Shown piece after piece: positions 15,599 through 18,617 of a stretch of DNA of 38,779 bases. The DNA is from Spirochaetota bacterium (GTDB lineage: Bacteria; Spirochaetota; Spirochaetia; Treponematales; UBA12059), in assembly GCA_029548805.1 (NCBI GenBank), contig JAKPMS010000119.1, positions 1-38,779 on the forward strand, written 5' to 3'. The notes under the pieces are model-generated. The model saw only the letters and a program-made list of their open reading frames with translations, was not told the DNA's origin and did not search any database. Position numbers and translations under genes: made by a program. Position 1 is the first letter of the stretch. Each line of letters opens with the position of its first letter.

Positions 15599-17050
15599 TC
15601 ATTGCGCAAACGATATGTACTTGGCAAGCTTGATTCCAGCATTTACGGCGCCAGCCAGGGTCAGCGCCGAGGAAACCCAGAAAGCAGCCTGGTAAAAGTA
15701 AAAACTTGTTTCAAGCGAACTGTATGTTGTGTTATGGCTGTAGTCTTGCGCCGCGCCGTAAAGGGTATAATACTGGGTCTGGAAAAGACCGGCAGACAAA
15801 ACCGTAGCCGGAAGTGAAAGGACAAAAAGGCCAAGAGCTTTGTAAAAAGCGCTTTTTTTTACTTCGTAACGCTCGTCAAAACTGGAACTTTCTTTTTTGT
15901 CCAGCCTGATTTTTTTTTGCATAGGGCCCGAGTTACCATTCAGAACCAATTGCATGCTTTCATAATTGTCAAGACTCAGACGCAACAGTCCAGCTTGGGT
16001 AATTCCGGCCAATACAAGCGGAGTTTGCCCCATCAAGAGTCCATCCAGATAAACAGCAGCTCCTTCCGGTTCGCTGTCCAGTTTCAGGTCTACTCCCTTA
16101 AGGGCTTCCAGCTTTACAGTAATGTCTTTTTCATCGCCGGGCAAAACGGCTGTTCTAATTTCCTCTGTTTTGTAACCCCTTGCCTCAAAACGCAGATGCA
16201 GGCTGACAGGTTCAAAAAATATGGCAGATTTTGAGTTATATGGCAGGCCGTTAATCTCAAGCCGGGAGCCGGGGGGATCCGTAAAAAATTTCAGGCGCGA
16301 ATAAGCTTTTCCGCTTACAGCTATAGTAAGAGCTTTGGATATTTCGTCTAGCATTTCCTGAAAACTGTTTTCTGAAGCATAGTTCTCGTATTCCCAAATA
16401 TCCGCATCCATGAATGTGCTATACAAGCTGACGCTCACTACATATATATTTGCAGCCAGCCTTACTTCTCCGTATACAAGAAAGTCAATTTTTTCCTGCC
16501 TGGCTTTGCTTTGCCGCTCGTCCCGGTTCCAGTATGGCAGAAGGCCCTGGGGGCTTTGATACAGCTTCAATTCCCTGATAATCATGTTTTCGTACAAGTC
16601 TTCTGCTGCCATATTGCCCGACAAAAAACTGTCCAGTTTTTTTTTGGCTTCCCCGACTTTTTTTTCTGACTGCTTAAGCTCCAACTGCTGTCTGCCAAAC
16701 ATACGCAAGCTGACGGCTTTTATATCCCTTTCTGTTTTTGCGCTGCTGACAGCCTTGCGCAAGCCTTCTTCTTCTATCAGATTTTGCTTAGACGAATAGG
16801 CAAGGTATTCCTCCGTTCCGGTATGACGAATACTGGAAAGCTCGAAATGCTTAGCAAGTTCGTTTCTTAAATGCCCGGGGATCAGAAACCCCAACGAATC
16901 GCCTGCCCCGTCTCCCCTTTTAAACTCGGAAAAAGCGATAAGCATTGGCTCTGCCATTAATGGCGTTTGCAAAAAGGCAAATATTAGGGTGAACAGCAGC
17001 ATTGCATATTGTTTGCCGCCATAACCCTGTTTATGCTTCGTCATCATCAT
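15599..17050 (-). CDS. PEGA-domain protein with signal peptide and C-terminal TM region
   Basis: Track ORF starts at 17098; the ATGATGATG at 17050-17042 inside the end of prfB is a more plausible start (MMMTKHKQGYGGKQYAMLLFTLIFAFLQTPLMA). PEGA-like 'LDSEPEGAAVYLDGLLMGQTPLVL' and 'FTDPPGSRLEINGLPY'. Confidence 0.7.
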   Translation of the reverse strand: MMMTKHKQGYGGKQYAMLLFTLIFAFLQTPLMAEPMLIAFSEFKRGDGAGDSLGFLIPGHLRNELAKHFELSSIRHTGTEEYLAYSSKQNLIEEEGLRKAVSSAKTERDIKAVSLRMFGRQQLELKQSEKKVGEAKKKLDSFLSGNMAAEDLYENMIIRELKLYQSPQGLLPYWNRDERQSKARQEKIDFLVYGEVRLAANIYVVSVSLYSTFMDADIWEYENYASENSFQEMLDEISKALTIAVSGKAYSRLKFFTDPPGSRLEINGLPYNSKSAIFFEPVSLHLRFEARGYKTEEIRTAVLPGDEKDITVKLEALKGVDLKLDSEPEGAAVYLDGLLMGQTPLVLAGITQAGLLRLSLDNYESMQLVLNGNSGPMQKKIRLDKKESSSFDERYEVKKSAFYKALGLFVLSLPATVLSAGLFQTQYYTLYGAAQDYSHNTTYSSLETSFYFYQAAFWVSSALTLAGAVNAGIKLAKYISFAQ

Positions 17051-18162
17051 CAGCCAAAACTGTACCGCCCTTCCACAGAAAGTGCAGATACGAATCAATA
17101 AACGGATCTATTTCGCCATCCATGACTGCCTGTATGTTTCCTGTGGAATATTTTGTTCTGTGATCCTTGACAAGAGTATAGGGCTGAAAAACATAGGATC
17201 TTATTTGAGAGCCCCAGGCTATCTCTTTTTTGTCTCCCATGAATTTTTCGTTTTCTTTTTCCTGTTCTTTCTGATAAATGTCGTACAAACGGCTTTTTAA
17301 AACTTTCATGGCAACATCTTTGTTCTTGTGCTGGCTTCTTTCGTTTTGGCAGGTTACCACAATACCGGTGGCCAAATGTGTAATGCGTACCGCACTGTCG
17401 GTTTTGTTCACCTTTTGTCCGCCAGCTCCCCCCGCCCTGTATGTATCAATCCTTATATCCTCCGGCTTGATATCCACTTCTATTGTGTCATCCAATACGG
17501 GAAACGCGGATACACTGGCAAAGCTGGTATGCCTTCTGGCATTTGAATCAAACGGGCTTATGCGTACAAGCCTGTGGACACCTGTCTCTCCCCTCAAATG
17601 GCCATAGGCATAAGCGCCGTCAATTTCCAGGGTGACGCTTTTGATGCCGCCTTCAGCTTCTATCAGGTCGATTATTTCGCTTTTATAGCCCTTTAATTCG
17701 CACCACCTGACATACATTCTGTACAACATGCTGGCCCAGTCACAGGCTTCGGTTCCTCCGGATCCGGCGTGAATGGACAAAAAAACGGAAGCCTTATCCG
17801 CTTCTCCAGTCATCAGTTCAAGAGTAAGGGCTGTATCAAAAACTTTTTTTAGTCCTTCCAGATTGTCCCTTAGCTCCTGTTCCATGGACGCTTCGTTTTC
17901 CAGGATTGCCAGATTGTAAACCTCGTCCAGAGCTTCTGCAGAATGCTTCAGGTTTTCCCAGGTTTCCAGCCTTTTTCTGAATATTTTGAGTTCGGCCATA
18001 ACTTTTTCTGAACGCTTTTGGTCAGACCAAAAGCCAGGCTCCGAACTTTTGGCTTCGTTTTCTGCAATGCGTTTTTTTAAGGTATCAGCGTCAAAGACGC
18101 CCCCAAATATCCAGTATTTCTTCTTTTAACCCTTCGATATCCGAACTCAAATCTTCAAGCAT
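17031..18162 (-). CDS. prfB: Peptide chain release factor 2, expressed through a +1 programmed frameshift
   Basis: Track ORF (17031..17999) has GGQ motif 'DTYRAGGAGGQKVNKTDSAVRITH'. Upstream zero frame: ATG at 18162 (SD-like 'aaggag') encodes MLEDLSSDIEGLKEEILDIWGRL then TGA; +1 slip gives LDADTLKKRIAENEAKSSEPGFWSDQKRSEKVMAEL..., the RF2 N-terminus. Confidence 0.95.
18090..18105 (-). promoter_or_regulatory. RF2 programmed +1 frameshift site (TGG GGG CGT CTT TGA C)
   Basis: Near-identical layout to the E. coli prfB site AGG GGG TAT CTT TGA C: SD-like GGGGG, CTT slippery codon, in-frame TGA followed by C. Confidence 0.95.
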
Positions 18163-18178
18163 AATAGCTCCTTGACAA

Positions 18179-18466
18179 TCAAGATAATTCCGTTGCCGAC
18201 CGTATTACGATACGTCTCCAGCGGTTTTCTTTTAAGCTTGTTATTACAAGCTTGCCTTCTACAGGATATTGATACATACGGATTCTGTCATAAAAGTCAG
18301 TTACTTTATCTATATCCCTTTTTAATGCCAGCAGCTGTTTTTCTGTAATGGAAGAGCTTTCAAAACAGGCGCGCTGCAGCTTTTCAAAGCCATATTGAGG
18401 TAAAAGGCTGTAAACAGCTGTCCTGGAATCATCACTACCCAAATCGCACAGCACTGATACAAACAT
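18179..18466 (-). CDS. Cas2-like small protein (orphan)
   Basis: 95 aa; 'MFVSVLCDLGSDDSRTAVYSLLPQYGFEKLQRACFESSSITEKQLLALKRDIDKVTDFYDRIRMYQY' fits the Cas2 beta-alpha-beta-beta-alpha-beta layout (Asp after beta1, 'YG-x4-Q-x2-CFE', 'DRIRMY'). Confidence 0.6.
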   Translation of the reverse strand: MFVSVLCDLGSDDSRTAVYSLLPQYGFEKLQRACFESSSITEKQLLALKRDIDKVTDFYDRIRMYQYPVEGKLVITSLKENRWRRIVIRSATELS

Positions 18467-18617
18467 GCCCCAATGTTATACGAAGCTATATTGTATTGTC
18501 AAACATTCTATTTTTCCATAGCTTTGCTTTCTTTTTTTTGGCATGCACTTGAATATTTTGCTGTCTTTATGCAAAACTCGCATATTAAACATAACAATTC
18601 TTTATAAGGAACATACC

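Follow-up and report, generated by a model that had tools for sequence, protein, structure and literature searches.

Contig JAKPMS010000119.1 of a Spirochaetota bacterium (assembly GCA_029548805.1), analyzed over its whole 38,779 nucleotides (nt; hereafter the window), encodes a small Cas2-family protein directly upstream of prfB, the gene for release factor 2 (RF2). This gene, here called cas2L, specifies 95 amino acids on the minus strand (18179..18466; ATG at 18466, TGA at 18181-18179), and 16 nt separate its stop codon from the zero-frame ATG of prfB. Upstream of cas2L lie the elements of a putative cas2L-prfB promoter, likewise on the minus strand: a −35 element, TTGACA (18497..18502), and a −10 region, TATAACAT (18473..18480), which can be read as TATAAC (18475-18480) or TAACAT (18473-18478) and ends 6-8 nt before the cas2L ATG. 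The 16-nt gap holds the Shine-Dalgarno sequence of prfB, AAGGAG (18168..18173, minus). On the same strand, prfB begins with a zero-frame 5′ segment of 23 codons (18094..18162; ATG at 18162-18160), reaches a programmed +1 frameshift site, CTT TGA C (18090..18096), and continues in the +1 frame through the remainder of RF2 (17031..18092). A first-pass annotation of the window had reported a 95-residue product at 18179-18466 that ends 16 nt before the RF2 start; the open reading frame is real, the gap is correct, and the strand is minus.

Membership of cas2L in the Cas2 superfamily is strongly supported. The window protein matches PF09827 with an E value of 4e-8 (33.8 bits; curated cutoff, 23.8), and all 12 listed matches among the PADLOC profiles are to Cas2 profiles (best E value, 5.6e-9). 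Against TIGR01573, the NCBI equivalog model for Cas2 of clustered regularly interspaced short palindromic repeat (CRISPR) systems, it scores 21 bits, under the cutoff of 24.5; across the family, 39 of 58 members match PF09827 at E values of ≤0.01. Judged by these profile scores, the resemblance to Cas2 is real and well beyond chance, and within the family the protein is an outlier. An AlphaFold 2 monomer model built from the family alignment (predicted local distance difference test score, 96; predicted template modeling score, 0.85) has the order β1-α1-β2-β3-α2-β4 followed by a hairpin (residues 72-79 and 82-88). Compared with the PDB, it matches Cas2 proteins or Cas2 domains best (probability, 1.0), with chains of 6k2e superposing at root mean square deviations of 0.9-1.0 Å over ~64 residues. 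The best Foldseek E value, 1.1e-3, is modest, as expected for a common fold of 95 residues, so the case for Cas2 rests on sequence and structure together. The Cas2-like pattern noticed in the first pass is thus borne out by PF09827, the PADLOC profiles, and the fold matches; the structure clearly matches Cas2, and VapD, also proposed there, matches less well (probability, 0.99-1.0; template modeling [TM] score, about 0.55). The predicted fold also resembles uncharacterized proteins of Erwinia phage pEa_SNUABM_47 and uncultured phage cr111_1 (BFVD A0A7L8ZP09 and A0A7M1RY04; TM score, 0.66; probability, 1.0; identity, 7-12%).

The phylum-wide alignment of the family has 58 rows and, matching the window protein in length, 95 columns. 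Nearly all members have a start codon at residue 1, in support of the start used here. Among 99 distinct cas2L sequences, E36, K49, D60, Q66, P68, and W83 are invariant, and residue 8, at the end of β1, is always acidic (D in 86, E in 13). The Tyr that precedes this residue in the Tyr-Asp pair of ordinary Cas2 is kept in 3 of the 99 sequences and lost in 96, and position 15 varies.

CRISPR systems have two hallmark proteins, of which Cas2 is one. The first-pass annotation had seen neither Cas1, an effector gene, nor an array in the window; a scan of the window revealed no CRISPR-like repeat array, and cas1 was not found anywhere in the genome to which the window belongs (2.39 Mb, 94.6% complete). 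A whole-genome PF09827 search of this genome missed cas2L itself, though the protein passes the cutoff, so this search is not used as evidence that Cas2 is absent, and the analysis relies on cas1 and on the family's own profile; negative results of such whole-genome profile scans need care. Among 80 genomes that carry cas2L, 31 lack cas1 (the window's genome included), and some of these are single-contig genomes. Since cas1 occurs in 49/80 carriers versus 14/29 noncarriers (Fisher P = 0.27), its presence is independent of cas2L. In the cas1 loci that were read, a separate, different cas2 adjoins cas1. On a phylogenetic tree, the cas2L clade is split from 29 spirochaete cas1-adjacent Cas2 proteins with support of 100/100 and a long branch, on few alignment columns and with poorly resolved branching inside both groups. 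We conclude that cas2L is not a stray CRISPR remnant, and no CRISPR-Cas locus elsewhere was seen to rely on it. These observations support the earlier proposal that a Cas2-family gene residing outside adaptation modules, with the acidic residue of β1 kept, has been repurposed.

A first scan for relatives, which reaches close relatives only, returned 21 GTDB records; 20 bear spirochaete titles (Treponema vincentii OMZ 806 among them), and the other is titled only "bacterium." By the family profile, 91 of 393 phylum genomes and 145 of 391 class genomes carry cas2L, the latter spanning 62 of 128 genera. Members score at E values of ≤4e-29, followed by a wide empty gap up to ordinary Cas2, represented by a single hit at 1.4e-4; the family is therefore sharply bounded. 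That weak hit, which adjoins a cas1, is the only exception to the presence of cas2L once per genome. The synteny with prfB holds across the spirochaetes: cas2L immediately precedes prfB, in the same orientation, in 90 of the 92 distinct class members with enough flanking DNA to test it, a count that includes 20/20 genomes of a further sample, most of them from families outside the profile set. The exceptions are L117 and L079/L120; at L079, the gene faces one that reads like an NYN-domain protein and has a Shine-Dalgarno sequence in place of the promoter. Upstream of prfB in noncarriers, no remnant of a decayed cas2L was detected in 27 loci. Close pairs of cas2L genes have a ratio of nonsynonymous to synonymous substitution rates (dN/dS) of about 0.05, and identities among cas2L proteins parallel those of prfB (Mantel r = 0.76; 0/2000 permutations as high). 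This is how a core gene evolves, as opposed to a defense or addiction gene. Sequence searches of IMG/VR and of phage and plasmid collections returned no relatives of cas2L, and on this ground a viral or plasmid origin was rejected.

The promoter keeps a fixed distance from cas2L. A TTGACA box, a spacer of ~17 nt, and a TAnnnT box ending 5-9 nt (mostly 6) before the ATG make up a consensus sigma-70 promoter in 69 of 76 distinct class-level loci; a Shine-Dalgarno-like sequence occupies this position in only 2 loci. By the same criterion, and with up to six start codons tried per gene, 3 of 218 background genes qualify (Fisher P = 6e-55, a value that is too small because the loci are related), and 15 of 20 loci of a further set share the architecture. 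The position of the promoter is conserved across the class though the spacer sequence is not, and homologues from another class have a Shine-Dalgarno sequence and no such promoter. With a promoter ending 5-9 nt before the ATG, the cas2L mRNA should be leaderless, starting at or next to the ATG; this predictive promoter spacing is new here. The predicted feature fits the phylum, given that Leptospira has many leaderless mRNAs (PMC5243855). A Shine-Dalgarno sequence is present at 100 of 107 prfB starts in carrier loci. Among 27 relatives without cas2L, 12 (L160-L165, L169, L170, and L172-L175) have an apparently leaderless prfB, with its ATG 6-7 nt behind a −10-like box and no Shine-Dalgarno sequence; in 6 of these 12 the full promoter score is at least 8.5, and L169 displays a full TTGACA-N17-TATTCT promoter. 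At L002, L005, L007, L008, L011, and L014, the −10 region upstream of cas2L holds a 10-12-nt palindrome, ATCGTATACGAT or TCGTATACGA, which could be an operator in these close relatives.

Two other links between cas2L and RF2 were considered and rejected. The CTTTGA frameshift site is present in prfB with or without cas2L (L081 is the one listed gene that lacks it), and regulation through reading of a cas2L UGA by RF2 is at odds with the mixture of TGA, TAG, and TAA stops. No match to Rfam was found in the window. Between prfB and ftsY, the window encodes a poorly conserved protein of ~500 residues (15599-17098) with PEGA-like motifs, as read by eye, and most relatives (many of L001-L018) keep this gene in the same prfB/ftsY order.

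We regard it as an even bet that cas2L is a domesticated Cas2-fold protein that probably acts on RNA and is expressed from one leaderless transcript with RF2. Its ancestor would have left CRISPR adaptation, or never taken part in it, and become a vertically inherited housekeeping gene of spirochaetes that opens an operon with prfB as its leaderless first cistron. The protein presumably forms a Cas2-type homodimer, in which the pair of Asp8/Glu8 residues and a basic surface (K/R29, R/K32, and the W83-[RK]-[RK] hairpin) would bind RNA, and probably cleave it, in some function connected with translation or mRNA turnover. The output of cas2L and RF2 may be set by 70S/initiation-factor status through the leaderless transcript rather than by a Shine-Dalgarno sequence. 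We infer the biochemical activity from Cas2 and VapD relatives, which cut RNA, DNA, or both in vitro (PMC9510766, PMC10491678, PMC11980593). In LinCas2C of Leptospira, the Y7A substitution alone leaves RNase activity about unchanged and reduces DNase activity (PMC9510766); because most cas2L proteins have lost this Tyr and all have kept the acid, the comparison leans weakly toward RNA over DNA. More tentatively, cas2L could be a Cas2-family partner of a translation factor, acting on ribosome-bound or structured RNA and dosed with RF2 by the leaderless transcript.

Several observations weigh against a domesticated, RNA-cutting partner of RF2. Asp8 is replaced by Glu in 13 of the 92 class members and the residue before it is mostly Cys, Leu, or Ile instead of Tyr, so the protein may have lost catalysis and retained only binding. 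In a second class (L094-L100), cas2L stands alone, with no prfB within about 3 kb, in varied neighborhoods without an obvious cas gene among the neighbors read by eye; its association with RF2 is thus not obligatory. The gene is missing from many genomes of the class and therefore is not essential everywhere. Both the transcript end and the cotranscription of cas2L with prfB are predictions from sequence, and given that leaderless genes abound in spirochaetes such as Leptospira (PMC5243855), leaderlessness may mean nothing special.

The alternative that survives best, possible but doubtful in our view, is a noncatalytic Cas2-fold regulator that binds nucleic acid, e.g., its own cas2L-prfB promoter or mRNA. 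Such a role would suit a protein in which Asp8 tolerates Glu, the preceding Tyr is replaced, and position 15 varies while E36, K49, D60, Q66, P68, and W83 do not, and the palindrome around TCGTATACGA in the −10 region would offer a target; however, this palindrome is limited to close relatives, and an acid at residue 8 in 99/99 sequences is expected for metal binding or catalysis. It is improbable that cas2L serves chiefly as a translated leader adjusting prfB expression, with the protein incidental: although cas2L lies between the promoter and prfB, and the 12 of 27 cas2L-free relatives described above have prfB 6-7 nt behind a −10-like box, the low dN/dS attests to strong protein-level constraint, and homologues in the other class retain the protein in the absence of prfB. 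A VapD-type toxin or mobile addiction gene that came to lie beside prfB, akin to the toxin-like role suggested in the first pass, shares the superfamily fold, as the VapD structural matches attest, and stand-alone VapD exists; but a single-copy, vertically inherited gene under strong purifying selection, at the same place in 90/92 members, absent from plasmid, phage, and IMG/VR collections, with no VapD profile among its Pfam, NCBIfam, and PADLOC hits and with prfB, only 16 nt away in the window, as its predicted same-transcript neighbor, largely refutes this very unlikely reading. Least credible of all is a CRISPR Cas2 acting in trans with a distant cas1, a reading that PF09827 membership and the cas1 genes of 49/80 carriers might favor but that is already refuted for the genomes lacking cas1 (the window's and 30 others) and is countered elsewhere by cas1 loci with their own cas2, the separate cas2L clade, and the independent occurrence of the two genes.

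Thus, in a class of spirochaetes that includes Treponema, a protein of CRISPR type appears to hold an established housekeeping role. In the open-access literature, on which we judged novelty (subscription journals lay outside this scope), no description of a prfB-linked spirochaete Cas2 was found. As a single-copy, slowly evolving, cas1-independent clade fixed beside RF2, cas2L offers a clean test case for the role of the Cas2 nuclease fold outside CRISPR. If it is indeed a partner of translation, cas2L would represent a core-gene, nondefense use of a CRISPR adaptation protein across a bacterial class. Automatic annotation may name some such genes CRISPR Cas2 in spite of the absence of CRISPR.

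Among known systems, CRISPR Cas2 (PF09827/TIGR01573; PDB 6k2e, 1zpw, and 3exc) shares its fold with cas2L, over ~64 residues of 6k2e. Unlike CRISPR Cas2, cas2L has no cas1 partner and, in the window, neither an array nor a TIGR01573 score above the cutoff; the Tyr before the Asp is replaced; and the proteins form a clade of their own, with the invariant Q66/P68 and the W83 hairpin, encoded in a predicted operon with prfB behind a predicted leaderless start. LinCas2C of Leptospira (PMC9510766) is likewise a spirochaete Cas2 and keeps DNase/RNase activity without a CRISPR array, but it resides in a subtype I-C cas locus, whereas cas2L does not. The VapD toxins (Helicobacter pylori HP0315 and Haemophilus influenzae VapXD; PMC11980593) belong to the same superfamily, are short, and have the Asp of β1; in contrast, cas2L is not mobile, no antitoxin was seen beside it (a negative made without an antitoxin profile search), the TM score is about 0.55, and a C-terminal β-hairpin takes the place of helix α3. 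The nearest precedent for an orphan Cas2-fold protein is BPSL1038, a Cas2/VapD-like nuclease of Burkholderia (PMC10491678). It comes from another phylum, has no reported link to prfB, and carries a D(X20)SST active-site motif where cas2L has D8 followed by KLQ at 29-31; both proteins are independent of CRISPR, conserved, and ~90 residues long, and both keep the Asp.
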